This document shows positions 9,065 to 23,898 of a DNA stretch of 32,033 bases, one piece after another. The notes under the pieces are model-generated. The model ran no database searches. It saw nothing but the letters and a program-made list of their open reading frames with translations, and was not told the origin of the DNA. This DNA is from Bdellovibrio sp. (GTDB taxonomy: Bacteria > Bdellovibrionota > Bdellovibrionia > Bdellovibrionales > Bdellovibrionaceae). Position numbers and translations under genes: made by a program. Within the stretch, counting starts at the first letter, position 1. The number at the start of each line of letters is the position of its first letter. Where the stretch lies: NCBI GenBank assembly GCA_013360185.1, contig JABWCO010000049.1, forward strand, positions 1 through 32,033. The letters are read 5' to 3'.

Positions 9065-9095
9065 AAAAAAAAGGGACTTCTTTTGTGAAGTCCCT
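9065..9095 (-). terminator. Intrinsic terminator of the 11-gene operon
   Basis: On the minus strand, AGGGACTTC and GAAGTCCCT form a 9-bp stem with a 6-nt loop, followed directly by eight T's (the A run at 9065-9072 on the plus strand). It lies about 30 nt past the stop of the coiled-coil gene, the last gene of the operon. This is a textbook rho-independent terminator. Confidence 0.9.
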
Positions 9096-9125
9096 GCGTT
9101 TAAAGGTTCTAAGTCTAGCTGTGGT

Positions 9126-9779
9126 CTATTTGACTTCAGCTAATGAATTGTAACTATCATTCAGCTTTTGTTGTCTTTCGACTTCTTTGCTCCAACGTTT
9201 CACTTCACCTTGGTAGCCTTTTTGTTTTGCTACCCATTCGTTTTCTTCACTCGCTAAAGAACGCATTTTCTGACTGACCTGCTCATTCTGTTCTTTTAAC
9301 GTATTCGCACGGGTATTCCAGATTTTCTTTTCTTCTTGCAGCTGGGTTAGTTGCAGTTGGTAATCGTTGATATTCATATCACGTTTTTTCTGGTTTTCTT
9401 TGATCTTGGCGATCATCGCTTCCAACTCTTGCACCTTTTGGTTTTCTTGGGCGAGTTTGGACTTTTCGTCGTTCATCAACTGTTGAATTTCTTTTTCCTG
9501 AGTGCCCAACCGGCCTATGGCCTGATTGTTTTCTTCAGCTTGCTGAAGCACTTGGCGTTGCTGATTTTCCACTTGGGATTTAGCTTTAGTTACTTCTGAG
9601 ATATTGCCTTCGACGGTCTTAAGGTTTTTCTCATATTCTTGCAGGTTGACCTTTGAGTTATTGACGTTGGCCTTAATGCGTTCAAGTCCATCTTTGGCAG
9701 AGTTCTGGGCCCCGGCATTGAGGTGCATGCTTAATAAGATTCCGAATGTTGCGCTAGAGAATGCTTTAGTTAATTTCAT
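9126..9779 (-). CDS. Secreted coiled-coil protein, last gene of the Agl/Glt-like operon
   Basis: A 217-residue protein with an N-terminal signal peptide (hydrophobic stretch ending near NAGAQ) and no later membrane segment, so it is probably periplasmic. Nearly the whole mature part is charged, Gln/Glu/Lys-rich heptad sequence predicted to form a long coiled coil (about 35-205). No enzyme motif is visible and no specific family is recognised. It starts 30 nt after the upstream TPR gene and is followed by the operon terminator, so it is co-transcribed with the motor genes. A structural or spacer role in the envelope complex is a reasonable inference, but the function is unknown. Confidence 0.8.
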   Translation of the reverse strand: MKLTKAFSSATFGILLSMHLNAGAQNSAKDGLERIKANVNNSKVNLQEYEKNLKTVEGNISEVTKAKSQVENQQRQVLQQAEENNQAIGRLGTQEKEIQQLMNDEKSKLAQENQKVQELEAMIAKIKENQKKRDMNINDYQLQLTQLQEEKKIWNTRANTLKEQNEQVSQKMRSLASEENEWVAKQKGYQGEVKRWSKEVERQQKLNDSYNSLAEVK

Positions 9780-9809
9780 CTTAAAAACCTTTCTTATGAC
9801 TCAATCTTA

Positions 9810-11927
9810 TTATTCAGCGAGACCAGCCACACTTGATTCTTGTGGGCAGACATTTTTCAAAGAAGAGCGATAGTGACCCACTTCGTCTTCCCAGATTTCG
9901 CCTTTAAATTTCCAGTTTAAGCTTTTTTCTTTTTGTACTTTAAGTTCAGGACGGTCTTTGACATTCACTTCGCCGCCAGCCATTTGGTAGCGGATGTGTT
10001 CGCCAGCGCCAGAATACAGTTCGTACTGCAGCACTTCATTTTGATCTAGGACACGATTTAAGCTTGCTAACATGTCACTGAAGCGACCTTTTAAAGCTTG
10101 TGAAGCTTGCGCACGTAAGACTATTTTTTCTTTTTCAATACGCGCTAAGCCGATAGAGCGTAAATTTTTAATCGATACACGGGCCTTTTTAGCAATGTGG
10201 TATTGGATGCGGTAACTCATCAGCTTTTTTTCCGCCTCTTGCACGCTGGCAATGGCAGCTTCTGACGGGCTATCACCCTTGATTTCTTTTTTTGCTTCCG
10301 CAAGTTGTTTGTTCGCCTCGTTTTGTTTGGCGATCAGCTCGCGCTCTTGCTTCACTAAAGTCAGTGCGATGCGATTAAAGCGTTGGATTTCGTCTTCGTA
10401 GGTATTGATTTGTTTTTGCACGCTCATAAATGCAGGGTGGCGTGCTAATTCCACGATGAAAGAGCGCGGTAAACCGTTAACTTCTTTCATTTCAGAGTTT
10501 TTGATCCAACTTTTCACGGTTTCATAATAGTTTGTTACTTCTGAGTTGGATTTTGAGTAATCTTCCAACTTCTTTTTCCACGGAGTGTATTTTTTGCTCA
10601 TTTCATTGAGCACTTGGACGCCGTCTCCGTATTGACACAAGTTTAGATAACCCACGGTACGTACGACGTATGATTCCGGAGAAAAGGCATTTTTAAAGAA
10701 GTCCGTGTGCAAAGAGAACATGTTCCCTGCGGCTCCCTCATAGTCTTCGCCCAGAACTTGGGTCCAAGCACTTTCAACCATGGCTTGCAGCCACAGGGGA
10801 TTTGACTTATCCACCTTCAAGTACGATTGGAAAGCATCTTTATAGTCACCCTTTTGGAACTGGATGCGTGCCAAGGTTAAAGCTGCGACAGAACGCAGTT
10901 GAGAAGTCTTTTGGTTTTCTGTGGCCGTCATTAACTTATCTAAGTGGATCGTGGCGTCGTCCACTTTACCTTGGCGATAGTTAAAAAGTGCTGATAATAG
11001 CAAAGCATCTGGGTAACGGGGAGACTTCTCTGAAATGTAAATCAAAGCATCTTCCATTAAACCTAACTGACCTTGCGCTGAATAATGTTTAGCGCGGGTG
11101 ATTTGATATTCGTCGTTCTTGGTGACGTCTAGATCATATTTGGATACCAACGGGTCAATCAGAGCAATATCAGAAGTTTCCAGCACATTGATGTACCTTA
11201 CTAAGGCTTCAGTTGCTTTTTGTTGCCAGTTTTTATCTTTTGACTCTTGTGACACCTGGATCATGTATTGGCGGAATTCAGAATTCAAACCCATGCCTTT
11301 GGCCGTCATCGCGTAATTGTACAGGGCTTCAATGCGGTGTTGCGGGTCATCCATGAGTTCGGCAAAAAGTCCCATGGCTAGCTCATAGTTTTTTTGAATT
11401 TCTAGGAAAATCAATGCCTGCAAAAGTTTATAATCATTCGGCTGCATCTCATCCATTTTGGTCAATTGCACCACGGGATCCGTAGTGCTGGGGTCCATGA
11501 CAGGATTGAGCAGCTTAACGTCTGGAATCTTTTTGAAAGCATCCGCAGATGTCAAATTTTTAGAAGGGGACACCACCTCGTTGTAGGGCAGCAATTGAAA
11601 TTGCAGAACAGCAGGGGATTCGCGGCGACGTGTATCTTTAATTTGCACATCGCGCTGAGTTGGTAAGCGCAGAGGCGAAAGATCTGCGGCGGTGACTTGG
11701 CGTTCTTCGCCGAGGTCAAGGGCCGGGATGTTTTTTACTTTATAGATTTCGACTTTACCATTCACGACTTTCTTTTGATAAACTTCAAAAGTCGGCACCA
11801 TGCTGGATTTCACCTTCAGCCCTGCCGAAGGTGCGCGACCTGCTTTGGTCACTTTCAACGCAGAGTCAGCCAAAGCTGTGCCGCACAGAAAGGGAATCGT
11901 CAATAATAGTTTAAAAGATGCTTTCAT
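9810..11927 (-). CDS. Secreted TPR protein with C-terminal coiled coil
   Basis: A 705-residue protein with a signal peptide (cleavage expected near GTALA-DS). The first 130 residues form a basic, low-complexity lead-in. Residues of roughly 170-480 are tandem TPR-like helical pairs, and about 500-640 are coiled coil. The C-terminal end carries an aromatic and acidic motif (WKFKGEIWEDEVGHY, then a Cys) that looks conserved rather than random. TPR proteins act as scaffolds, and several Glt proteins of the Myxococcus gliding complex are periplasmic TPR proteins. That parallel and the operon position suggest a scaffold in an envelope-spanning machine. Which Glt protein it corresponds to, if any, cannot be decided from sequence alone. 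It starts 21 nt after the barrel gene. Confidence 0.82.
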   Translation of the reverse strand: MKASFKLLLTIPFLCGTALADSALKVTKAGRAPSAGLKVKSSMVPTFEVYQKKVVNGKVEIYKVKNIPALDLGEERQVTAADLSPLRLPTQRDVQIKDTRRRESPAVLQFQLLPYNEVVSPSKNLTSADAFKKIPDVKLLNPVMDPSTTDPVVQLTKMDEMQPNDYKLLQALIFLEIQKNYELAMGLFAELMDDPQHRIEALYNYAMTAKGMGLNSEFRQYMIQVSQESKDKNWQQKATEALVRYINVLETSDIALIDPLVSKYDLDVTKNDEYQITRAKHYSAQGQLGLMEDALIYISEKSPRYPDALLLSALFNYRQGKVDDATIHLDKLMTATENQKTSQLRSVAALTLARIQFQKGDYKDAFQSYLKVDKSNPLWLQAMVESAWTQVLGEDYEGAAGNMFSLHTDFFKNAFSPESYVVRTVGYLNLCQYGDGVQVLNEMSKKYTPWKKKLEDYSKSNSEVTNYYETVKSWIKNSEMKEVNGLPRSFIVELARHPAFMSVQKQINTYEDEIQRFNRIALTLVKQERELIAKQNEANKQLAEAKKEIKGDSPSEAAIASVQEAEKKLMSYRIQYHIAKKARVSIKNLRSIGLARIEKEKIVLRAQASQALKGRFSDMLASLNRVLDQNEVLQYELYSGAGEHIRYQMAGGEVNVKDRPELKVQKEKSLNWKFKGEIWEDEVGHYRSSLKNVCPQESSVAGLAE

Positions 11928-11948
11928 AAGCCCCCCACCCCTGGGAAA

Positions 11949-12713
11949 TTAGTGCCAGTAAGTAATCCCGATCATCAATGATGTATTATTGATGGTTTCA
12001 GATCCTAAATCCCTGTTTCCAGTAACGGTGGTTCCGCCGACTGAAGATCCTGGTGCATAGTATTTCATTTTATTTTGTGTCGACCACGTGTTGATTAGAT
12101 CGGCACGGATCGCAAAGTGTTCCGAGAAAAACATCTGCTGGAAAACACCTAGTTTATAAGCAAAGGTACTTTTCGCAAGATTTCCTTCTGCCTGTGTGAT
12201 TTCGTAATTAAGTGTTCCTACTCCTGCAGAAAGACCCATATCGAAATAAATAATGGCTTTGTCCATCACGCTCATTTTCGCATAGAAAGGCACCCAGATT
12301 CCTGAAAGGAAGTAAGACGACTTAATCACGTTATGATCGGGGATGGCTTTATAAGAATTTACAAACTGATGAACGGCATCGTTGTCTTTCATGGAAGCAG
12401 AGTCAAAATTTACTTCCATACCATAGCGTTCGTTGAAAAAGTAACCCAAGCTGCCAGTAACAATCGTTCCGGTGCTGTAAGGGTCATTAAATGGAATACC
12501 TGCAGAGCCGGTAAGGTAAAAGCGTTCGGCTTTCGTGTAACGGCGGTTTTGCACGACACTGAAGTCGTCGTCTTTTGCGGCCCAATATTTTTGTTCCAAT
12601 TTTTTGATATCCAACTTATCACTGCCGCGTTGATCGGATTTTGTATCCGCTGCTTGTTGCGCGAAAGCCTGTGATGTTGCCAAGATGATAGTTAAGATGG
12701 TTTTTTTCAACAT
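11949..12713 (-). CDS. Outer-membrane beta-barrel protein
   Basis: A 254-residue protein with a clear signal peptide (cleavage near SQAFA-QQ), a charged mature N-terminus, then alternating hydrophobic strands with glycines and aromatics from FYLTGSAGIPF (about residue 65) to the C-terminal TSLMIGITYWH. This is the pattern of a small outer-membrane barrel of about eight strands. An AGGGG Shine-Dalgarno lies about 7 nt before the ATG. The Myxococcus gliding complex includes outer-membrane barrel proteins (GltA, GltB, GltH), and the adjacent TonB-like gene makes it a plausible outer-membrane contact of the complex. This role is inferred from the operon; the barrel topology is only predicted. Confidence 0.8.
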   Translation of the reverse strand: MLKKTILTIILATSQAFAQQAADTKSDQRGSDKLDIKKLEQKYWAAKDDDFSVVQNRRYTKAERFYLTGSAGIPFNDPYSTGTIVTGSLGYFFNERYGMEVNFDSASMKDNDAVHQFVNSYKAIPDHNVIKSSYFLSGIWVPFYAKMSVMDKAIIYFDMGLSAGVGTLNYEITQAEGNLAKSTFAYKLGVFQQMFFSEHFAIRADLINTWSTQNKMKYYAPGSSVGGTTVTGNRDLGSETINNTSLMIGITYWH

Positions 12714-12728
12714 GTTCTAACCCCTGCC

Positions 12729-14216
12729 TTAGTTTGTACTTTTGAATAGGAATGGATACGTTACTAGCACGCGAGTTCCACCTTGTGGGTTCGGAAACTT
12801 CCATGCTGCAACCCTGTTCAAAATACATCCCTCTACGGTTGCGTTCTTCAGTGTAGTATCACCGATGAGCTGTTGTTCCACGGACCCTGAGGGGCCGATC
12901 GTGAACTTCACAGCGACTTTGCCAAATAAATCTGGATTCGCGCTTAATTGGCGCTCATAACAATATAAGATCTGACCAAGTTTAGATTTGATGTACTGAG
13001 CGATAATTTCGCGATCTAGACCGCCGGTAATTTCGCCTTCTTCTTCAATCAAGCCAACCCCTGCATTGCCAGTACCGCCAGCCGCTAAGCCGCCCATACC
13101 CGACGCACTTTTGCCGCCACCTTTACCCGCCGTTGAAATTACCACGCCAGAACCTGTGCCTTCTGAGCCCCAGTCACGACCTGATTTTTCCATACCACCG
13201 ACCGCAGCTAGAGCACGACCGGAAGGACCTGAACCGGCCTTCACGCCATTCGCAAAAACGACGTTGCCTGATTTAGCCGCTTGCGCCGACACTTTTCCGA
13301 TCAGTTGAGAAATACGACCGCCTGCGATCGACTTCATCATTTTTGAAACCTTACCTTGGCTGCCACTTGTTGGCATTTCAGCCTTTGCTGATTTTTCTGT
13401 TGCCGGAGCTTCTTTCACGACAACTTCTTGTTTCGGAGCGGGAGCCGGAGCGGCCGCTTCGAGACGCTTACGTTTTGGTTTTAACTCTGTTTTAACCACA
13501 ATTTTTTGCGCCACTTTAGGGGGTGTCGCTGCGGTCTCGACCGTTTCTTTTTTCGGAGCAAAAACGCCGACAGAAACCAGCAGCAGGGCTGCACCCAGAA
13601 TGAAATAAAAACCACGTTTTGATTCTTTGTCCATTAACTGATCTGCAGACAGGTGACCTAGTTTAGCCACGTCTTCCATTGAAACGGTTCTTTGGCTGAT
13701 TTCCAAGTTTTCAACAACTTGTTTGTGCCAGTCTTCAGAAGGGGTGCATGCCACAACCAGAGGCGAGCCCGACATGGTCGTTACGAATTTTTTATTTAAA
13801 GGGATGACTTTTGTTTCCACGATTTGTCCGTATTGGCGGACCATGAAAAGTTGAAACTTTTTATCACTGGCGCGTGATTCTTTGCCTGTTTTATCTAAAC
13901 GCAGGTAAAGGTCCGCCTCTTTCGTCACCGGTGTAAATTTCAAAGTGCAATCGGCAAGTTCTAAAGTTTTTTCGCCATCAATGCACAGAGCCGGGGAGTC
14001 AGAGCCTTTTGCGCTGGCCTCCATGTCCATGTTCACATACCACCAACGGTTGTCACGGAATTCAAAAAAACCTTGAATCCCTTTGGTGTAAGGTGAAACG
14101 GAAATGACGTCTGCCAATCGGCTTGAGCCGAAGGTGTGTGTTTCGTTGTTTGAACGCAACTTCCAAGTTTTCGCCGTCCCATTTTTTAGGGATTGACGTA
14201 CAATTAACGTGATCAT
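12729..14216 (-). CDS. FHA - transmembrane - TonB/AgmX C-terminal protein (GltG-like)
   Basis: A 495-residue bitopic protein that could physically bridge cytoplasm and periplasm. Residues 1-100 resemble an FHA fold (FGSSRLADV near 29-37), although the canonical Arg/Ser phosphothreonine-binding set is not clearly intact. A cytoplasmic linker follows, then one membrane helix (about 202-220), a Pro/Ala/Lys-rich periplasmic stretch (about 230-290) and a Gly-rich stretch (about 325-400). The final 90 residues match the TonB-like AgmX/PglI C-terminal domain, with paired cysteines at 419 (in YCYER) and 464 (in GCILNRV). TonB-type proteins pass energy from ExbB/ExbD-like motors to outer-membrane partners. 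The same domain order occurs in Myxococcus GltG. It has a GAGG Shine-Dalgarno and is flanked by 15-nt gaps. Confidence 0.88.
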   Translation of the reverse strand: MITLIVRQSLKNGTAKTWKLRSNNETHTFGSSRLADVISVSPYTKGIQGFFEFRDNRWWYVNMDMEASAKGSDSPALCIDGEKTLELADCTLKFTPVTKEADLYLRLDKTGKESRASDKKFQLFMVRQYGQIVETKVIPLNKKFVTTMSGSPLVVACTPSEDWHKQVVENLEISQRTVSMEDVAKLGHLSADQLMDKESKRGFYFILGAALLLVSVGVFAPKKETVETAATPPKVAQKIVVKTELKPKRKRLEAAAPAPAPKQEVVVKEAPATEKSAKAEMPTSGSQGKVSKMMKSIAGGRISQLIGKVSAQAAKSGNVVFANGVKAGSGPSGRALAAVGGMEKSGRDWGSEGTGSGVVISTAGKGGGKSASGMGGLAAGGTGNAGVGLIEEEGEITGGLDREIIAQYIKSKLGQILYCYERQLSANPDLFGKVAVKFTIGPSGSVEQQLIGDTTLKNATVEGCILNRVAAWKFPNPQGGTRVLVTYPFLFKSTN

Positions 14217-14231
14217 TGATTACCTCTAATC

Positions 14232-14483
14232 CTAGTTATTCAAATATAGGGCTGATTCGCGAATACGGGCGTCCATATCCTTCTGCACATCGTAAAGTGG
14301 CATAAACTTAATGCCCCTTTTTTGCACAAGGTAGGCCCCATCAGGATTACGAATCGTACCCTTGAGGTTCATCTCACCAAAATTGACTTCTTGGACTTTA
14401 CGGACTGTTCTTTGTTTGGCAAAGGCAGTCGCGGTTGTTCCCAAGAGAATGAAAGCGACCATCGCTGTGATGATAGTTTTCAC
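14232..14483 (-). CDS. Small secreted protein in the motor operon
   Basis: An 83-residue product with a GTG start and a strong GGAGGG Shine-Dalgarno 6 nt away. The signal peptide ends near ATAFA-KQ, leaving a mature protein of about 60 residues with no cysteines and no membrane segment. The mature part has a conserved-looking core (EVNFGEMNLKGTI, then a KRGIKFMPLY region) and a charged C-terminal helix. No family is recognised. It sits between the large TPR gene and the FHA-TonB gene with 14-15 nt gaps, so it is co-transcribed with them and is likely a small periplasmic component of the same complex. Confidence 0.75.
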   Translation of the reverse strand: MKTIITAMVAFILLGTTATAFAKQRTVRKVQEVNFGEMNLKGTIRNPDGAYLVQKRGIKFMPLYDVQKDMDARIRESALYLNN

Positions 14484-14497
14484 TTGTACCCTCCATA

Positions 14498-17400
14498 CTA
14501 CAAGTCTCCCGAGATAACGTGCTGACCGACTTTGTTCTGAGTTTTCAAATATTCTATTTTCTTACCTAACCAATCACGCATATCCAATTGCTGACTGGCT
14601 TTAAATGCTTTTTCATAAGAGTCTAACGCAAGCGTCGGACTTCCTTTGTAGGTCTCAAATAAATGAGCCTGCTGTAATAAGTAATCGACATTTTCCCTGC
14701 GAACATTAAGCAATTCTTTAATCAAACTTAATGCTTTGTCGACCTCGCCCTTCTGGGCATAAGCTTCACTCATGACTGGGCCTACACCAAGAGTATACAA
14801 CTGGTCTTTCGACAAGGCAGATAATTTTTCAATCGCGCGTGTGAAATCTCCCTCTGAGAAAGATTTAATACCTGCGAAAGTTTGCATTTCTGTCGAAGGC
14901 ATTTGCATGTCTAAAACTTTTTCGAAAAATGGCATCGCGGAAATCAAACCATCTTCTTTATAAAGTAAACGAGCTTTTTGATACACGAACGGAGAGACTT
15001 CTGGCTGCGCTTTAAGAGCGGCCTCAATCATCCACAGGGCTTTGTCATTAAACCCTTTACCTTCGGATCCTAGACTTGCGAAGAATAACCCCAAAGAGCG
15101 GGTCTCTTTATTTTTTGCTAGCTCTAGACCTAGACGCTCGACGGTTTCAAATTGTTTTGAGTAATAGCAGTTACCCGCGATATCAAAGGCGTTAGCCAGA
15201 TTGATTCCGCCGCTGCCGACTAAGGTTTTATTACAAGTTTTAGCCGCCTTTGTCTCAAAACGAGTCACTTTACCGATGCTCATGTCAGAGCTGTTTGGCA
15301 AGAAGGCCAGCATTTTTTCTGCAGCTGGATACGCCACCACCGGAGGCAACGTTTGGTCAGGGCGGACGTTGGCCAAAATGCGCTCTGTGCTTGAAGCTTG
15401 CCCCTTAGACGCTGCCAATACTTTGAGTTTGGCTTCATTTTCATTTTTCTTTTCTTGAATCGGTGTCGTTAATTTGGCGATTTCTATGCGCAGAGCTTTC
15501 TGATCTTCCGCACTCAAAGTCGCAGGCAAAGGCATTGTTTCTAAACTTTCAATGAAGTTCGCATAACAACGATCGATACCACGCATTGCTTCAAGTTGTT
15601 GATAAGGATCTTTGCTCATTTTCAATGTCGTGTGGTAGGCGGTGTGCGCTTTGTCTAGTTTTTCGGTCTTCATCGAAAGAACCAGAGCAAATTTTTCCTC
15701 ACGAGCTTTGACGCTTTGTTGGACCAATTCTTTTTCTAAAATGCGGGCCTGAATCAGGCGAGCTTCGGCACGGACTTCCGCGGGCGCATCCCGACCGTTG
15801 GCTTTTAACGAAAGGTCAAACGCTTGAGAGATTTTACCGGCATCTAAGAAAGCGCGGGCCCGAGCGATCATGATTTGTGTTGTGAACGGTTCTATACCTT
15901 TTGCTAAGATTTGATTTTGCAACTTTTCCAGTTCTGCTGCTTGAGGTTCATTTTTATAGGAATCTAAAAGCTTCGTATAGATGCGCTCCAGCGTTTTGTT
16001 GTCAGCACCATTTAAGATGTTTGTATAAGCGGCGCGGGCTTCTTTTGTTTTCTTTTCCAAAAGATAGATATCGGCAGCCAACTCGAGCTGATTGTTGCGG
16101 TCTTTTTTGTCAAGATCTGCAATTTTTAATAAAGTTTCTGCTGATTTTGAAATCTGACCGACTTCGGCATACGCTTTGGCCGTATCTTTTAGCACGTCCA
16201 GGTTACGTTTGTCGTTCGGATATTTTTTCACGAATTTTGTAGAAAGCTCTGCGGCCTCAAAGATCCTGCCTTCAGAATAAAGGATACTCAAAGCTTGCCA
16301 TAAAGCATCTTGAGAAAGTTTCGAGTTCTCGTGCTCTTTGGCGAAGGCAATAAGTTTTTGCGAGGCCTGGTCTTTGTCGCCTGTTTTCGCGAACTCTTGA
16401 ATTTCTGTGAAGTGGGCTTCTTCCATGATTTTGTTCATGCTCTTTTTGCGATCTTCATCGCTGGAAGATCCCACCACTTGTTTGGTAAAGGACTTAATAC
16501 CTGCATAGTCTTTGCGGATGTTCAGGATGTCGAGTATCAAATCTTCAGATTTCTTTTTGATATCGGGTTGGTCGCCGGCTTTTAGCTGCGTTAAAGGCTT
16601 TAACCATTTTTCGGCTTCCAGATAGTTATTTTCTTCGTAGGCGATATGGCCGACTTTGAATTTAACCAATGTCGCATATTTGCCAGTAGGGTGCTTGGCC
16701 AAATAGTTCGTTGCTAAATCTTTGCGTTCAGCATCTTTTAAAGGATCTGATTTTTTCTCGATGCTTTTTTCTTTCGAATATAAAGCGGCATAGTTTGCAT
16801 CATGGCGCATTGTTGGCTCTGCGGATTTGTCGCCGACCATTTTGTATTGTGTGCTGGCTTCGTCATACTTTTCGAGTTGGAAAAGAAGTTCGGCGTAAGC
16901 ATAGCGAGTTTTAAGGTCCGGTTTTGTTGGGTCTTCGTTGTCGAGGATCAACTTAAATAGTTTTTGAGTAAGATCTGAAAACTGTACATTTTGTTTGTTC
17001 TTAAGCCAGATCTCCCACCATTTTTTCGCCATGTCTAGGCTGGTGCGGCGGAAGCCTTCTTCGCAAGATGCTTTTAGGATGTCGGCCTTTTGCAGGGATC
17101 TCCATGTCGCATCACCTTTACAGAGATCACTGACTTCTTGCAAATGAGTGATGACTTTGTCACGTAATTTCAAAGTTTCATTGGCTTCAACCAAGAATAG
17201 ATGTGAACGCACGACATCGGGACCCGAAGAACGTTTGTCGATGTATTCACCCAAGAAGATATTCATTTCTTTTTGACGGCTGTGGGATTCATAAAGCTTT
17301 GCCATGTTGATCATGGACTCGCCCAGTTCTTCTTCAGTCGTAAAGTCTTCAAAGAAGGAATATAGTTTGTCGGCAGAATAAGAGTCACCCACAAAGACAG

Positions 17401-18208
17401 CTAAATCGCGCAAAGCTTCACGGCGCAAGTTATGGCGATTGGTCGGCACTTCGCCGTCCTGCAATGCCGGGTTTGTTTTTACCACAGTGACTAGCTTTTT
17501 GATGCCGTTGTCACTGTCGCGCAGATTGTAATATGCCCAAGCGGCTTTATACATGCCGTAAGAGTAAACTCGGCTGTTCGGAAATTTTTCAACCGCTAGA
17601 AAATGGTCTAAGGACTCTTTGAACTTTCCTTGATCGTAAAGTAATTCACCTAAGGCCAAAGTTCCGTCGGGAATCAGAGGTGACTTAGGAAAGCGGGTGA
17701 TCAGTTTTAGATAAAGCGCTTCAGATTGTTTGAACTGAGCGACTTGTTGGTTTGCAAAGGCATTATTGAAAAGAACCGAATCCATTTGTTTGAAATTCGG
17801 AAAGTCTATTTCAATTTTAGTATAAATTTTAATGGCTCGCTTGATCGCTTCCGAGCCTTTTTCGTTGGCTACTGGAAACGGAGAAAGTTTCAAGAGGGGA
17901 GTGTCTTGGTGCAAGTCAAAGAAACGGCCGGATTTTGAGCGTCGCATATAGAGCTCCGCCAAACGATACCACAGGTCGGCTTCTTCTTTGGCACCTTTCT
18001 TTTTCTTGATGATTTGCTGTAAAGAATCAATCGCTTTATTTTCAGAGCGAGTGATCATGACCTCACTGCTGAGCGCCTTCTTTTCGTTTTCTTCTTCGCT
18101 GGTGTTTAAGCGAACTTCCGGTAAAAGCCCTTTTTCAGTTCTTTCTGCAGAAAAACTTGATAACGAAAATAATTGAAGTGCGAGCAGTAAAATCATGTTG
18201 CGATACAT
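14498..18208 (-). CDS. Large secreted TPR repeat protein
   Basis: A 1236-residue protein with a signal peptide (cleavage near SFSA-ER) and then an almost continuous helical repeat array. Many segments fit TPR or Sel1-type spacing, for example around ADLWYRLAELYMRRS (about 75-95) and YAYAELLFQLEKYDEAS in the middle. No catalytic motif is visible. Very long periplasmic TPR proteins are part of the Myxococcus gliding complex. Its position directly after the two ExbD-like genes (4-nt gap) makes a periplasmic scaffold for the motor the best inference. A GGAG Shine-Dalgarno precedes the ATG; a second in-frame ATG lies four codons further in. The next gene starts 14 nt downstream. Confidence 0.85.
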   Translation of the reverse strand: MYRNMILLLALQLFSLSSFSAERTEKGLLPEVRLNTSEEENEKKALSSEVMITRSENKAIDSLQQIIKKKKGAKEEADLWYRLAELYMRRSKSGRFFDLHQDTPLLKLSPFPVANEKGSEAIKRAIKIYTKIEIDFPNFKQMDSVLFNNAFANQQVAQFKQSEALYLKLITRFPKSPLIPDGTLALGELLYDQGKFKESLDHFLAVEKFPNSRVYSYGMYKAAWAYYNLRDSDNGIKKLVTVVKTNPALQDGEVPTNRHNLRREALRDLAVFVGDSYSADKLYSFFEDFTTEEELGESMINMAKLYESHSRQKEMNIFLGEYIDKRSSGPDVVRSHLFLVEANETLKLRDKVITHLQEVSDLCKGDATWRSLQKADILKASCEEGFRRTSLDMAKKWWEIWLKNKQNVQFSDLTQKLFKLILDNEDPTKPDLKTRYAYAELLFQLEKYDEASTQYKMVGDKSAEPTMRHDANYAALYSKEKSIEKKSDPLKDAERKDLATNYLAKHPTGKYATLVKFKVGHIAYEENNYLEAEKWLKPLTQLKAGDQPDIKKKSEDLILDILNIRKDYAGIKSFTKQVVGSSSDEDRKKSMNKIMEEAHFTEIQEFAKTGDKDQASQKLIAFAKEHENSKLSQDALWQALSILYSEGRIFEAAELSTKFVKKYPNDKRNLDVLKDTAKAYAEVGQISKSAETLLKIADLDKKDRNNQLELAADIYLLEKKTKEARAAYTNILNGADNKTLERIYTKLLDSYKNEPQAAELEKLQNQILAKGIEPFTTQIMIARARAFLDAGKISQAFDLSLKANGRDAPAEVRAEARLIQARILEKELVQQSVKAREEKFALVLSMKTEKLDKAHTAYHTTLKMSKDPYQQLEAMRGIDRCYANFIESLETMPLPATLSAEDQKALRIEIAKLTTPIQEKKNENEAKLKVLAASKGQASSTERILANVRPDQTLPPVVAYPAAEKMLAFLPNSSDMSIGKVTRFETKAAKTCNKTLVGSGGINLANAFDIAGNCYYSKQFETVERLGLELAKNKETRSLGLFFASLGSEGKGFNDKALWMIEAALKAQPEVSPFVYQKARLLYKEDGLISAMPFFEKVLDMQMPSTEMQTFAGIKSFSEGDFTRAIEKLSALSKDQLYTLGVGPVMSEAYAQKGEVDKALSLIKELLNVRRENVDYLLQQAHLFETYKGSPTLALDSYEKAFKASQQLDMRDWLGKKIEYLKTQNKVGQHVISGDL

Positions 18209-18212
18209 AAAA

Positions 18213-18710
18213 CTATTCTCCGACTAAAGTAATAAGCTTCAGCTGAGGATATCCCGCCATAGAGGCTGTATACATAACTTTTCGTAAAGTTGCGTAGGGA
18301 AGATCTTTATCAGCTTGAAGTAAGATACGACCTTCTTTAACGTGAGGCTTGTCTGATTCCGCTTTTGCGATTTTATCAAGCTCCTGAAACAAAGGTTTGA
18401 TGAAGTTTGCATCTTTGGATTCTAAGTCCTGGGGCAAGAAATCGGCATCTTTCACATCTGCGAGTTTTGTCTGGTCAATCTTTAGCGAGCTCTTCGAAAG
18501 AGAAATCTTTATGGATTCCGTCGGATTTAGCATGGATGAAGACGCAGGTAAGCGAATTTCGCTGTCAGGCGTAATCTGTATCTCGGCAGTTGAATATGTT
18601 TGCAGCAAGAACACCAGCATGATCGTGAACATGTCTGTCATCGAGGTGATGTTCAGGGTGAACGTTGAGTTTTTCTTTATATTTGGTTCATATCTACGAC
18701 GGCGTGACAT
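18213..18710 (-). CDS. ExbD/TolR-family protein with intact membrane aspartate (AglS-like)
   Basis: A 165-residue single-span inner-membrane protein. A basic cytoplasmic N-terminus (MSRRRRYEP) precedes one membrane helix at about 20-42, in which TSMTDMFTIMLVFLL carries the conserved aspartate that takes up ions in ExbD, TolR and MotB-like stators. The rest is a periplasmic domain ending with the ExbD-type LLQADKDLPYATLRKVMYTA stretch. In Myxococcus the AglR-AglQ-AglS proteins form a proton-driven gliding motor with one TolQ-type and two TolR-type subunits, the arrangement seen here. It is separated from the other ExbD-like gene by 3 nt and from the large TPR gene by 4 nt, so translation is probably coupled. 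Confidence 0.9.
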   Translation of the reverse strand: MSRRRRYEPNIKKNSTFTLNITSMTDMFTIMLVFLLQTYSTAEIQITPDSEIRLPASSSMLNPTESIKISLSKSSLKIDQTKLADVKDADFLPQDLESKDANFIKPLFQELDKIAKAESDKPHVKEGRILLQADKDLPYATLRKVMYTASMAGYPQLKLITLVGE

Positions 18711-18713
18711 AGA

Positions 18714-19259
18714 TTAGCCCTCCATCATGTTGGCAAAAACAATTTCTGGAAACATATAGTTCGTTTCCACGTTTTTGCCCTGTTTGGTGTCGTACACGGG
18801 GAACTTAGTGTTTGTGTCACGAGCTTGACGAGCCTCGTCCATCACTTTAACGACATCGTTATAAGGAACAGCGCCATCGGGACTTAATTCAATTTTGAAA
18901 ACGTCAGGATGGGCTTTCTTAACCGCAACTAACTTCTGATGTAAAGTTGCATAATCAAAGGCGCCATCTTTCAATGGAACTGTTTCGACTACGTCTTTGC
19001 CTTTTTCGGTAATGACGATATGAAATCCTTCTTTAGCGACAACTTCCACGGCAACGTTGGTGACGGTGGGCTGTTGTTCTTGGCGTTGGATCGCCTCGTT
19101 TACAACCTGTGGAAGTTCGGATTCAATGACCATCATTTGCACGAAAGCAGAGGACACTAGAAGTACTGGCACTAGCTTCACCATCACGGCAAGCAGGGGA
19201 GCCAAGTCCAACTCGAATTCGCTGTTGTGATTCACTTTAATTTTCTTAGTGCGTCTCAT
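18714..19259 (-). CDS. ExbD/TolR-family protein lacking the membrane aspartate (AglQ-like position)
   Basis: A 181-residue single-span protein with the ExbD/TolR layout: basic N-terminus (MRRTKKIKV), one membrane helix at about 20-44, and a periplasmic domain with the LSPDGAVPYNDVVKVMDEAR stretch typical of ExbD. The helix reads APLLAVMVKLVPVLL where the family has a TPLVDVMLVLL-type sequence. The conserved ion-carrying aspartate is therefore replaced by alanine, and a lysine appears four residues later. The nearest acidic residue is the Asp in ELDLAPLL, outside or at the edge of the helix. It may act as a structural partner of the aspartate-bearing paralogue. It follows the ExbB-like gene by 48 nt, across a strong hairpin. 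Confidence 0.88.
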   Translation of the reverse strand: MRRTKKIKVNHNSEFELDLAPLLAVMVKLVPVLLVSSAFVQMMVIESELPQVVNEAIQRQEQQPTVTNVAVEVVAKEGFHIVITEKGKDVVETVPLKDGAFDYATLHQKLVAVKKAHPDVFKIELSPDGAVPYNDVVKVMDEARQARDTNTKFPVYDTKQGKNVETNYMFPEIVFANMMEG

Positions 19260-19298
19260 AAAATTCCATCCTAGCTTAAGCTGTACGTCTTTATTCGC

Positions 19299-19318
19299 AA
19301 GCTTCCCTTAGGAAGCTT
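19299..19318 (-). other. Intercistronic hairpin holding the stop codon in its loop
   Basis: AAGCTTCC and GGAAGCTT form a perfect 8-bp stem around a 4-nt loop, and the TAA stop of the ExbB-like gene lies in that loop. No T run follows on the minus strand, so this is unlikely to be a full terminator. It may instead protect or process the message between the ExbB-like and ExbD-like genes. Confidence 0.55.
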
Positions 19319-20015
19319 TTGAATTTGGTGACGGAGGAGTTGCCGTTGGCGCCGTCATATTGTCCGGGTAGACATTTTGACGAGTCAAACTTGGGATATG
19401 AGCACTAGTTAAAAGTTCAGCAAGCTTTGAGCACTTCTCTTGCATTTGCTCGATCAGTTGATTTTGACGAGCTGTCAAGACAGAGAAGAACACCATCGCC
19501 GGGATTGCCACGGCAAGACCCAAAGCTGTTGTATACATCGATACCGAGATACCGTGTGCTAACAAAGCTTGTTTTTGCGCTGGATCGGCTGTCGCGACCG
19601 CTTGGAACGAAAGGATCAGACCGTGGATGGTACCAAGAAGACCCAACAAAGTTGCCACGTTGGCAAGCATCGAAAGGTAATGTAAACGTTTCGTATACAA
19701 AGGAATGTTTTCGCTTAAAGCAATATCGTGCGCTTGGAAAATTGTATCATCATCACGATCGGCTTTTTCAAGGATCGTTTTAAAAGAGTTTGCTAAAGGC
19801 TTTTTATCTAACTGTGCGCAAAGCAATAAAGCTTCATCCAGTTTTTTCGCTAAAACTAGATTCTGTATTTTGCCCATGAACTCGTCGACATTCATCGCAT
19901 AGTCTTTGTAAAGAGCGCGAGCGCGTTCTGCAACCAGAACTAGTGAACCGATGCCCACTACTAGGATGCACCAGCCTACGAAGCCAGAATCGTTCATAAA
20001 ATTAAGAAATGCCAT
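19308..20015 (-). CDS. MotA/TolQ/ExbB proton-channel family protein (AglR-like)
   Basis: The channel-forming subunit of an ion-driven inner-membrane motor. From the ATG at 20015 it has 235 residues, with a first membrane helix near the N-terminus (GWCILVVGIGSLVLVAE), a cytoplasmic loop of about 80 residues, and two further helices carrying the family signature GLLGTIHGLILSF, then MYTTALGLAVAIPAMVFF. Three spans and this loop order are typical of TolQ/ExbB. A start eight codons upstream is possible, but the chosen ATG has an AAGGGGG Shine-Dalgarno about 6 nt away. The start overlaps the end of the GYF-PilZ gene by 14 nt. Two ExbD-like genes follow, matching the AglR-AglQ-AglS order of Myxococcus. 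Confidence 0.92.
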   Translation of the reverse strand: MAFLNFMNDSGFVGWCILVVGIGSLVLVAERARALYKDYAMNVDEFMGKIQNLVLAKKLDEALLLCAQLDKKPLANSFKTILEKADRDDDTIFQAHDIALSENIPLYTKRLHYLSMLANVATLLGLLGTIHGLILSFQAVATADPAQKQALLAHGISVSMYTTALGLAVAIPAMVFFSVLTARQNQLIEQMQEKCSKLAELLTSAHIPSLTRQNVYPDNMTAPTATPPSPNSKAS

Positions 20016-20607
20016 TTGTTTCCCCCTTGGAGCCGTCACCGTGCGTCCATTTAGTTAGCTGATTCGAACCCTGATCTTGCACTTGGAGGAAACGAACTGC
20101 GTAATGCAAACCAGATTTAACATTAAGTCGTTGCTTGGAATAATTCTTACGAACTACTTCACAAAGCACATTGAACGGCTGAGGATTCACCTCGGACGTT
20201 CTAAAATTCAAAAGAACTTTTTGCCCTGGTAAGAGCAATGGATCATTTAACAAAACCAAAGCACCGTTTTCGCTGACGCTCAAGGTTTGACCGTCAAAGA
20301 ACGTGTGGTCGTTGTGTGCATACACTGGCGTCGACAAATCCACGCGTGGGAATTGACGAGCTTTAAAGGCGCCCGACAGATGATCTTTTGTTTCGATCAA
20401 GCGGCACAAGCGGTCTTTTGAAAACTCTTGCAGGTCACCAACCAGTGTCCAGTTGTCGATGTGTGAAGCCCATACATAGTTGTAATCATAGAGCTCGCCA
20501 TTTTGGATCATCGAGATCAAGGCTTTGTATTCGTAAGGACCATATTTCATGTCCCCACGAAGGATGTACCATTGAGCTGTATTTGATGCTGCTTGCGCCG
20601 TGCTCAT
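20002..20607 (-). CDS. GYF-PilZ fusion protein
   Basis: A 201-residue cytoplasmic protein with two domains. Residues 11-62 match a GYF_2-type fold (QWYILRGDMKYGPY, then NWTLVGD), which usually binds proline-rich peptides. Residues 80-180 form a PilZ domain with RQFPR (Arg84, Arg88) matching RxxxR and SVSENG (110-115) close to D/NxSxxG, the first position being Ser. Cyclic di-GMP binding is therefore plausible. It overlaps the ExbB-like gene by 14 nt, so it is made together with the motor. A GYF domain also occurs in Myxococcus AgmX/GltJ. A c-di-GMP-responsive adaptor touching the Pro-rich FHA-TonB protein or another motor partner is an inference. Confidence 0.85.
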   Translation of the reverse strand: MSTAQAASNTAQWYILRGDMKYGPYEYKALISMIQNGELYDYNYVWASHIDNWTLVGDLQEFSKDRLCRLIETKDHLSGAFKARQFPRVDLSTPVYAHNDHTFFDGQTLSVSENGALVLLNDPLLLPGQKVLLNFRTSEVNPQPFNVLCEVVRKNYSKQRLNVKSGLHYAVRFLQVQDQGSNQLTKWTHGDGSKGETNGIS

Positions 20608-20621
20608 TCGTTCAGCTCCTC

Positions 20622-21689
20622 TTACAGTTTGATCGACTTAGGATAGAAGTCGATTTGAATATTTGCGTTTGCACCTGGCACAGAGGTTCCGTGGAAGGTG
20701 ATCGTTAAGTCTGAAGCGTTGTATGTCCAGCCGTTCACAGCGTCGGGTTGTACAGTCACGCCATCAACAGTTACGGCGATCGTATCAACTTGCGGTTCAC
20801 GCGAAAGTTTGAATACGGCTGACAACTGAATGATAGAGTCAGAGATCAACTCTAAAGTTTCTCCGAAGTTAGAACACAATGAACCCTTTACGCCGCCAGT
20901 TAAGTCGGCAAGTTGTGGCAAACGTGTTGAGATCTTGCGTAAGAAACCATCTGTTGAAAGTTGTGTCTTACAAGCTGTATCGGGAACAGAGATCGTGCTA
21001 ACAGAATAGTTTTTGCCGTACACCGATGTTTTGGTGAAGGTATCTAAAAAGTCGACATAACTTTGTACTGTAAAGTTTTTGCTGGCGTCTTCAAAAGCTG
21101 TTGCTGAAGAACCAGAGAAGTCCTCTTCGTCACTGACGATGATAACAGCTAAGAACGCGTCATCACGGCGGAAGGCAGAGTTGTTCGGCTCAAGGAGAGT
21201 TTGTTTAAAGCTTTCGAAAGCTCTTTCATCACCGTTACCGATAGTTCCCTGTTTGATATTGGTCGAAAATACTGAATTCAGATCAGCTGTTGTTTTGTCC
21301 ATCACGAACACGCCAGAATGTGTTTCGATTTTCGGACTTGTTTGCAAGATGGCACCATCTTTAATGCGGGCTTTGATACTGCCGGCATCAAATTGTTTTT
21401 CCCAAGCTTCGGTTGTCGTGACGGCCATGCGGAAGTCGTAATTAGATTGATTGAAGCGCTCGATGAAGGCTTGGAAGTTAGAAGCTAGATTGTTTTGTGA
21501 TGTCTCCATAGATCCGGAGTTGTCGACAACCCAAAGGATATCGATCTTCTTCGGAATAAAGACAGCCTGCTGTTTGTAATCCTCAGCGTCTGCTAATAAC
21601 GAGAAAGAATCAGCACCCTTGTTACATCCTGCTAACATAGCAACTGCCGAAACGGCGATCACTGTTTTGCGTGCGATTTGATTCATCAT
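20622..21689 (-). CDS. von Willebrand factor A-domain lipoprotein, first gene of the operon
   Basis: A 355-residue predicted lipoprotein. The signal peptide ends in the lipobox LAGC (lipidated Cys22, Asn at +2). From about residue 48 a VWA domain begins, with the metal-binding MIDAS motif DNSGS (56-60) in ILWVVDNSGSM and a later acidic VSDEEDF stretch. VWA domains bind metal-dependent protein partners, often surface adhesins or matrix. The C-terminal 80 residues form a beta-rich domain ending FYPKSIKL. An AGGAGGG Shine-Dalgarno lies 8 nt before the first of two adjacent ATGs. It leads the motor operon with a 14-nt gap to the next gene. A surface adhesin or an assembly factor for the machine is possible; its substrate is unknown. 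Confidence 0.88.
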   Translation of the reverse strand: MMNQIARKTVIAVSAVAMLAGCNKGADSFSLLADAEDYKQQAVFIPKKIDILWVVDNSGSMETSQNNLASNFQAFIERFNQSNYDFRMAVTTTEAWEKQFDAGSIKARIKDGAILQTSPKIETHSGVFVMDKTTADLNSVFSTNIKQGTIGNGDERAFESFKQTLLEPNNSAFRRDDAFLAVIIVSDEEDFSGSSATAFEDASKNFTVQSYVDFLDTFTKTSVYGKNYSVSTISVPDTACKTQLSTDGFLRKISTRLPQLADLTGGVKGSLCSNFGETLELISDSIIQLSAVFKLSREPQVDTIAVTVDGVTVQPDAVNGWTYNASDLTITFHGTSVPGANANIQIDFYPKSIKL

Positions 21690-22086: not shown

Positions 22087-22204
22087 CTTGTACTTGTACT
22101 TGTACTTGTACTTGTACTTGTACTTGTACTTGTACTTGTACTTGTACTTGTACTTGTACTTGTACTTGTACTTGTACTTGTACTTGTACTTGTACTTGTA
22201 CTTG
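22087..22204. repeat. CTTGTA hexanucleotide tandem array, 19 full copies plus CTTG
   Basis: A perfect, uninterrupted 6-bp tandem repeat of 118 bp. No frame on either strand contains a stop, and any copy-number change keeps the frame. It lies about 400 bp upstream of the VWA gene and 340 bp upstream of the HNH gene. The perfect array suggests recent expansion and likely length variation between strains. Confidence 0.98.

Positions 22205-23813: not shown

Positions 23814-23898
<85 letters not shown>

Follow-up and report, generated by a model that had tools for sequence, protein, structure and literature searches.

Among the described systems closest to the operon considered here are the Agl/Glt gliding machine of Myxococcus xanthus (AglRQS, GltA-K, CglB) and Bd1473-Bd1483 of Bdellovibrio bacteriovorus HD100, one of four tonB-like/agl operons in the literature (PMC2797640, PMC3169522). 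The operon occupies positions 9126-21689 on the minus strand of a 32,033-nt contig (JABWCO010000049.1, positions 1 to 32,033, of assembly GCA_013360185.1; hereafter the window) from a draft genome of the genus Bdellovibrio, and it is the orthologue of Bd1473-Bd1483, hence the operon itself is already known. The probable HD100 region (L052) has the same 11 genes in the same order, with proteins 73-94% identical and no difference in gene content found, and the operon's position in the probable HD100 genome (G006) fits the published gene numbering. What does look unreported in the searchable literature, outside which most subscription papers lie, is the loss of the transmembrane aspartate from the ExbD-type subunit AglQ, the fusion of GltD with GltE, and the grouping of a detached GYF-PilZ and VWA gene pair (Bd3100-Bd3099) with the in-operon pairs of other families.

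We regard it as probable, with some reserve, that the operon encodes an Agl/Glt-family trans-envelope machine for slow surface movement or force-bearing surface contact, driven by protons, clutched by a cyclic dinucleotide and tipped with a MIDAS adhesin. This reading is based on family profiles, a motor that falls outside the Tol/Exb clade, conserved linkage, the residues and predicted folds of the adhesin and the PilZ protein, and published surface-induction and transposon-insertion data. Expression of Bd1473-Bd1483 rises in host-independent growth and falls when attack-phase cells pass to 30 min of predation (PMC2797640), Bd1483 was found in a surface secretome (PMC11003981), and Bd1482 was proposed earlier as a PilZ receptor of cyclic di-GMP (c-di-GMP) for DgcA-controlled gliding (PMC3271064).

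Operon layout and family assignment

A first-pass annotation of the window had described a predator's minus-strand operon of eleven genes, closely spaced and closed by a strong terminator, and this description was confirmed. All eleven open reading frames (ORFs) were found in place, with intergenic distances of 3 to 48 nt and a single overlap between the GYF-PilZ gene and aglR, where a GTG start at 20039 gives 38 nt of shared sequence and an alternative in-frame ATG lies 24 nt further inside. The stem at 9095-9072 ranks first among the 21 terminator-like sites of the region (shuffles yield 17.1). From the first gene to the terminator, the features are as follows.

20622..21689, minus strand: predicted VWA/MIDAS lipoprotein adhesin, Bd1483 orthologue (lipobox, MIDAS, NCBIfam, predicted fold)
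20002..20607, minus strand: cytoplasmic GYF-PilZ protein, Bd1482 orthologue, probable cyclic-dinucleotide receptor (Pfam, motifs, fold)
19308..20039, minus strand: AglR, TolQ/ExbB-type channel, Bd1481 orthologue (Pfam MotA_ExbB 2.9e-26; tree)
18714..19259, minus strand: AglQ-type ExbD subunit without the transmembrane Asp, Bd1480 orthologue (Pfam ExbD 1e-20)
18213..18710, minus strand: AglS-type ExbD subunit with the Asp (Pfam ExbD 5.5e-16)
14498..18208, minus strand: GltD-GltE fusion, secreted TPR protein of 1236 aa (profile matches to Myxococcus GltD/NfsD)
14232..14483, minus strand: GltF/CglF homologue, secreted, 83 aa (NCBIfam CglF; family profile)
12729..14216, minus strand: GltG, with cytoplasmic domain, transmembrane segment and TonB/AgmX tail (NCBIfam)
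11949..12713, minus strand: outer-membrane barrel of GltA/GltB type (NCBIfam OMP_myx_plus; profile)
9810..11927, minus strand: GltC, secreted TPR protein (NCBIfam GltC; profile)
9126..9779, minus strand: periplasmic coiled-coil protein (conserved operon position)
9072..9095, minus strand: intrinsic terminator directly after the last gene (9-bp stem, 6-nt loop, T-run)

By sequence, the parts make up an inner-membrane AglR-AglQ-AglS motor, a GltG transducer with a TonB-like tail, periplasmic GltC, GltD-E and GltF, an outer-membrane barrel, a MIDAS lipoprotein and a cytoplasmic GYF-PilZ protein. The coiled-coil protein is encoded by the last or near-last gene of the operon throughout the order, and neither it nor the GYF-PilZ protein has a counterpart in the Myxococcus clusters read (family-profile search). 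Two simple repeats were noticed nearby: a perfect 19.7-copy hexamer array of CTTGTA (CAAGTA on the minus strand) at 22087-22204, upstream of the operon and within a small minus-strand ORF, which could be a length-variable element, and in the same neighbourhood a 20-copy TAGG tetranucleotide array at 23815-23895 with 98% matches.

The motor genes stand in the order R-Q-S, a TolQ/ExbB-type AglR followed by two ExbD-type subunits. The domains originally read from the letters were largely recovered: Pfam detects PilZ, GYF_2, MotA_ExbB, two ExbD, TPR and the barrel, with the barrel and TonB_C scores under the curated cut-off, and NCBIfam supplies the AgmX/PglI C-terminal domain of GltG (3.5e-31, above cut-off); an FHA domain, also claimed for GltG, was undetected by Pfam in the window's own protein. 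NCBIfam further matches GltG (4.4e-45, an equivalog, under its 650-bit cut-off), GltC (2.3e-32) and the barrel (OMP_myx_plus 1.3e-23, above cut-off). Family profiles built from orthologues of the window's own genes and searched against the Myxococcus clusters returned AglR at 2e-39 to 7e-41, GltG at 6e-37, GltD against GltD/NfsD at 7e-61 and 4e-64, GltC of Myxococcus G2 at 3e-29 and the GltA/B-type barrels of G2 at 6e-10, with AglQ and AglS matched as well. GltH, GltI, GltJ and GltK were found nowhere in the operon by Pfam, NCBIfam or family-profile comparison with Myxococcus, and their absence from B. bacteriovorus has been reported (Luciano et al., PMC3169522).

In the AglR tree, the window operon and its orthologues form a Bdellovibrionales clade (support 100) set apart from Tol/Exb proteins, and the AglR-type proteins of Myxococcus (Myx_C5), Anaeromyxobacter and Sorangium join the paralogues C206, C208, C79, C37 and C76 from the window's genome (support 82-83), the placement of Myx_C5 being read with the limit that no independent proof shows which Myxococcus locus is M1. 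The pairing of the C206 paralogue with Myx_C5 is in line with Luciano et al., for whom Bd0828-0838 stood closest to AglRQS (PMC3169522). The window system is thus placed by profiles and tree within the Agl/Glt family and not as an orthologue of the Myxococcus gliding motor, and the resemblance to AglRQS-Glt noted at first pass survives at the level of the family, the closest Bdellovibrio relative of the Myxococcus motor being C206. A plain Tol-Pal or TonB energiser cluster would account for the weak scores of AglR and the ExbD subunits on the TolQ/ExbB and TolR/ExbD equivalogs; however, the TolQ, ExbB, TolR and ExbD equivalog scores are all far under cut-off, TolB/Pal neighbours are lacking, the AglR branch is distinct from that of the Tol-type operon which the genome also has (C113), and the GltG and GltC matches are strong. 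With tree and profiles both refuting it, that explanation was rejected and keeps next to no probability.

The AglQ aspartate and the stator

In the AglQ-type subunit, the transmembrane Asp (TolR D23 column) is replaced by Ala or Ser in 30/30 Bdellovibrionaceae sequences; the column was set with a TolR reference sequence, and the paralogues point to the same one. Around the missing residue, where PxxD would be usual, the nearly invariant stretch reads PLLAVMVKLVP, with a Lys at Asp+4. AglS-type subunits have their Asp in all 51 aligned sequences, and that of AglQ is kept in all seven AglQ paralogues from the window's genome and Myxococcus. Among AglQ orthologues of the order's other families it is kept in 10/14 and lost in 4/14. 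As orthologues elsewhere in the order lack it too, and the window's operon has every other core feature, the Asp is not taken as defining the Agl/Glt family. A single ancestral loss was not established, as the motor tree needs at least three changes by the author's count and has weak deep support. AglR keeps both its second- and third-helix (TM2 and TM3) threonines, and loss of the TM3 Glu, considered as a second special feature, was set aside because Agl paralogues vary at that position and one family member (L068) keeps the Glu.

A tentative extension of these observations, which we hold to be possible and no better than that, is that Bdellovibrionales have an Agl/Glt subfamily of their own in which Bdellovibrionaceae run an asymmetric stator, one proton-conducting ExbD-type subunit beside an Asp-less partner, with a GYF-PilZ clutch and an operon-encoded integrin-like adhesin. 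If true, a one-aspartate motor, perhaps a force sensor, would supply the motor, switch and adhesin that, according to a 2026 review, have yet to be identified for Bdellovibrio gliding. The natural loss of one of two ExbD-type Asp residues also offers a ready test of whether motors of the 5:2 type need both.

The same replacement, seen in 30/30 family members within so constant a stretch, would suit a complex that acts as a mechanosensor, in which GltG and AglRQS sense the load borne by the MIDAS adhesin, the GYF-PilZ protein reports to cyclic-dinucleotide signalling, and an Asp-less AglQ reflects a lesser need for torque; MIDAS proteins can serve as force sensors (PMC11003981). However, the retention of the AglS-type Asp and of both AglR threonines argues for continued proton flow, and PilZ proteins usually receive signals rather than make them, so that a purely sensory role appears quite improbable.

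The adhesin, the GYF-PilZ protein and the history of the operon

The VWA protein is predicted, from its sequence and modelled fold, to be a MIDAS-family lipoprotein adhesin with a DxSxS metal site. Its lipobox Cys22 and MIDAS residues D56-x-S58-x-S60 are invariant in 23 aligned proteins, and its AlphaFold model (pLDDT 86) finds integrin beta headpieces as the best fold matches in the Protein Data Bank (PDB; E 1.3e-10), with TM-scores near 0.4 that indicate a match over the domain and not the whole chain. The VWA domain first read here has no Pfam match; its support comes from that fold and from NCBIfam (MIDASAdhsBdello 2.4e-18, CglD 2.5e-13). Neither the VWA nor the GYF-PilZ protein has a direct sequence relative in the PDB at E 0.01. 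A 404-aa Myxococcus VWA lipoprotein (L232, L234) was considered as CglB, an identity that was not established, as no CglB model matched.

The GYF-PilZ protein (Pfam PilZ 4.4e-14, GYF_2 1.7e-9) is a probable candidate for a cyclic-dinucleotide receptor. R84xxxR88 and S112xxG115 are invariant in 23 such proteins, and the fold matches of its model (pLDDT 79) are headed by the motility inhibitor MotI/DgrA, followed by cellulose synthase PilZ domains and YcgR, with the GYF domain of Myxococcus GltJ (7z3c; GYF_2 by Pfam) lower down at E 0.029.

All eleven genes recur in the same order in 25/25 regions from relatives (L045-L069), an order that is for that reason far beyond chance. Two further regions (L073, L074) keep the other ten genes with no VWA gene seen, and two more are interrupted by contig ends. 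One complete genome of the same family (G025, 2,657,893 bp) is without the operon and keeps one glt operon of the C206 type together with a lone GYF-PilZ gene (L071, 13397-13954), although the operon is present in other species of that genus; a link between its absence and epibiotic predation would rest on this single genome. When the GYF-PilZ protein alone served as query, it led to the same operon in 18/18 regions read from the order's other families, seven of which hold the VWA gene in the operon; the count leaves aside the order's five other genomes, in which matches were weak, at contig edges or missing. In one family (f10; L238, L239, L240, L247, L257) the operon is split, with GYF-PilZ, AglRQS and GltG at one locus and, in genome G047, a second locus with GYF-PilZ, VWA, GltD, GltE and GltF.

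Given these counts, the GYF-PilZ and VWA proteins are old parts of the machine in Bdellovibrionales, and the proposal that they and the small secreted protein were lineage-specific additions does not hold. The small protein is itself GltF/CglF, as it matches the NCBIfam CglF model (1.8e-4; 6.8e-9 for an orthologue from another family, L079) and its family profile matches a small GltF-like protein of the Myxococcus Nfs cluster (8e-7). The VWA protein belongs to a wider CglD/MIDAS lipoprotein family: two probable counterparts of paralogous operons in this genome (C208 and C79) also end in a VWA lipoprotein gene (L085 1737-2765, L087 13442-14686), so that three of its agl/glt operons have a MIDAS-type protein of their own.

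Bdellovibrionaceae also carry a stand-alone GYF-PilZ and VWA pair, found in the window's own genome (L082), the probable HD100 genome (L083) and L248-L256, which corresponds to Bd3100-Bd3099 by position and published numbering. In midpoint-rooted trees this pair falls with copies that other families have inside the operon (the stand-alone clade itself has support 99, deeper nodes are weak), and the present in-operon copies of Bdellovibrionaceae form a separate branch. Duplication followed by displacement would be the simplest reading of the detached pair. As relatives keep that pair beside the motor, Bd3100-Bd3099 is predicted to act with it, and the common surface induction of bd3099 and bd1480 agrees with such joint action.

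The GltD-GltE fusion corresponds to two genes in the order's other families, one for a TPR protein of about 1000 aa and, next to it, one for a separate protein of 223-326 aa, often a lipoprotein (14 regions and one second locus), and the C-terminal ~220 aa of the fusion align to this separate ORF in the 14 regions. The family regions read at full length have GltD and GltE in one ORF of 1222-1283 aa; one member (G029), with an unfused version of 894 aa, shows that not every genome of the family has the fusion.

A proposed surface machine and its comparison with described systems

The mechanism suggested by analogy with the Agl/Glt family is one in which proton flow through AglR, using only the Asp of the AglS-type subunit, would drive AglR around its ExbD-type subunits. 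GltG may then transmit this movement across the periplasm to the outer-membrane barrel, and the integrin-like MIDAS lipoprotein at the surface could grip a substrate or other cells. The GYF-PilZ protein might engage or brake the motor on binding c-di-GMP or cyclic GMP-AMP (cGAMP), as YcgR and MotI do on MotA. The output would be slow movement or force-bearing contact on solid surfaces and in biofilms, and not prey entry itself; candidate motor, switch and adhesin are held together in one conserved unit.

Part of the published data speaks for this. Transposon insertions in Bd1481 (aglR) and Bd1483 lower biofilm predation, a weak defect (PMC2277423), and bd1480 (aglQ) and bd3099 (VWA) are surface-induced in dependence on the cGAMP synthase Bd0367 (PMC9140294), the mutant of which is without gliding (PMC9140294, PMC3271064). 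Several points weigh against a gliding or contact machine. Deletion of Bd1483 gives no predation or invasion defect (PMC11003981); proteomics links gliding at exit to a different cluster, Bd2368-2377 (PMC12546842); and it is the C206 operon (Bd0828-0838 type), not the window's, that comes nearest to the Myxococcus gliding motor (AglR tree; PMC3169522). As to the clutch, the second PilZ motif, (D/N)xSxxG, begins with Ser where D/N is usual, so that nucleotide binding is not certain.

It is also conceivable that the machine has no role in locomotion and serves to move or assemble a polymer at the surface or a component of the envelope, as Nfs does for the Myxococcus spore coat. For GltD, GltG, GltF and GltC, the profiles score at least as well against Nfs-cluster proteins as against gliding-cluster ones, GltI, GltJ and GltK were not found in the operon, and the core complex is also present in bacteria for which gliding is not known, the Nfs copy serving sporulation (PMC3169522). 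However, a surface MIDAS adhesin is more in keeping with contact than with export of a polymer, the neighbourhood holds, murJ aside, no genes for polymer synthesis, and aglQ is surface-induced in dependence on Bd0367, the mutant of which does not glide (PMC9140294, PMC3271064); such a role is judged unlikely. The preferred reading remains a machine for surface movement or contact.

Set beside the Myxococcus gliding machine, the operon shares the AglR, Q and S-type motor, GltC, D, E, F and G, an outer-membrane barrel and a CglD-family VWA lipoprotein. Unlike that machine, it has GltD and GltE fused, an Asp-less AglQ, an AglR in a separate clade, all genes in one operon and no GltH-K found; the GYF domain, present in both, lies within GltJ in Myxococcus and on a separate PilZ protein here. 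The Nfs spore-coat machine has counterparts of GltC, D, F and G that score no lower than the gliding set, but its biology is different, and the Nfs region, as far as it was read, showed neither a VWA nor a PilZ gene. One public record labelled Comamonas sp. KCTC 72670 (L097) looks like a Myxococcus-type genome by its MglA and Glt/Nfs clusters, and the label looks wrong; its MglA is 99% identical to an M. xanthus query.

Within Bdellovibrio, Bd0828-0838, Bd2368-2377 and Bd0411-0421 are paralogous agl/glt operons, the last linked by proteomics to the early bdelloplast (PMC12546842). These operons have no GYF-PilZ gene, the paralogues in this genome keep the AglQ Asp, and GltD and GltE are separate in C206. 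At least four paralogous gene sets besides the window's are present in the genome (C206, C208, C79, C37/C76), and functions may be common to them or split among them. The AglR and AglS-type genes on contigs C37 and C76 (L088 2230-2802, L092 4205-4636) are almost the same, through either a recent duplication or an assembly effect. The nearest models for the proposed switch are the flagellar stator clutches YcgR and MotI/DgrA, in which a PilZ fold acts close to a channel of MotA type. The GYF-PilZ protein, whose model has MotI as its first fold match, differs from both in having GYF in place of YcgR-N as its N-terminal domain, in an identity of ~16% and in an interaction with AglR that is hypothetical.

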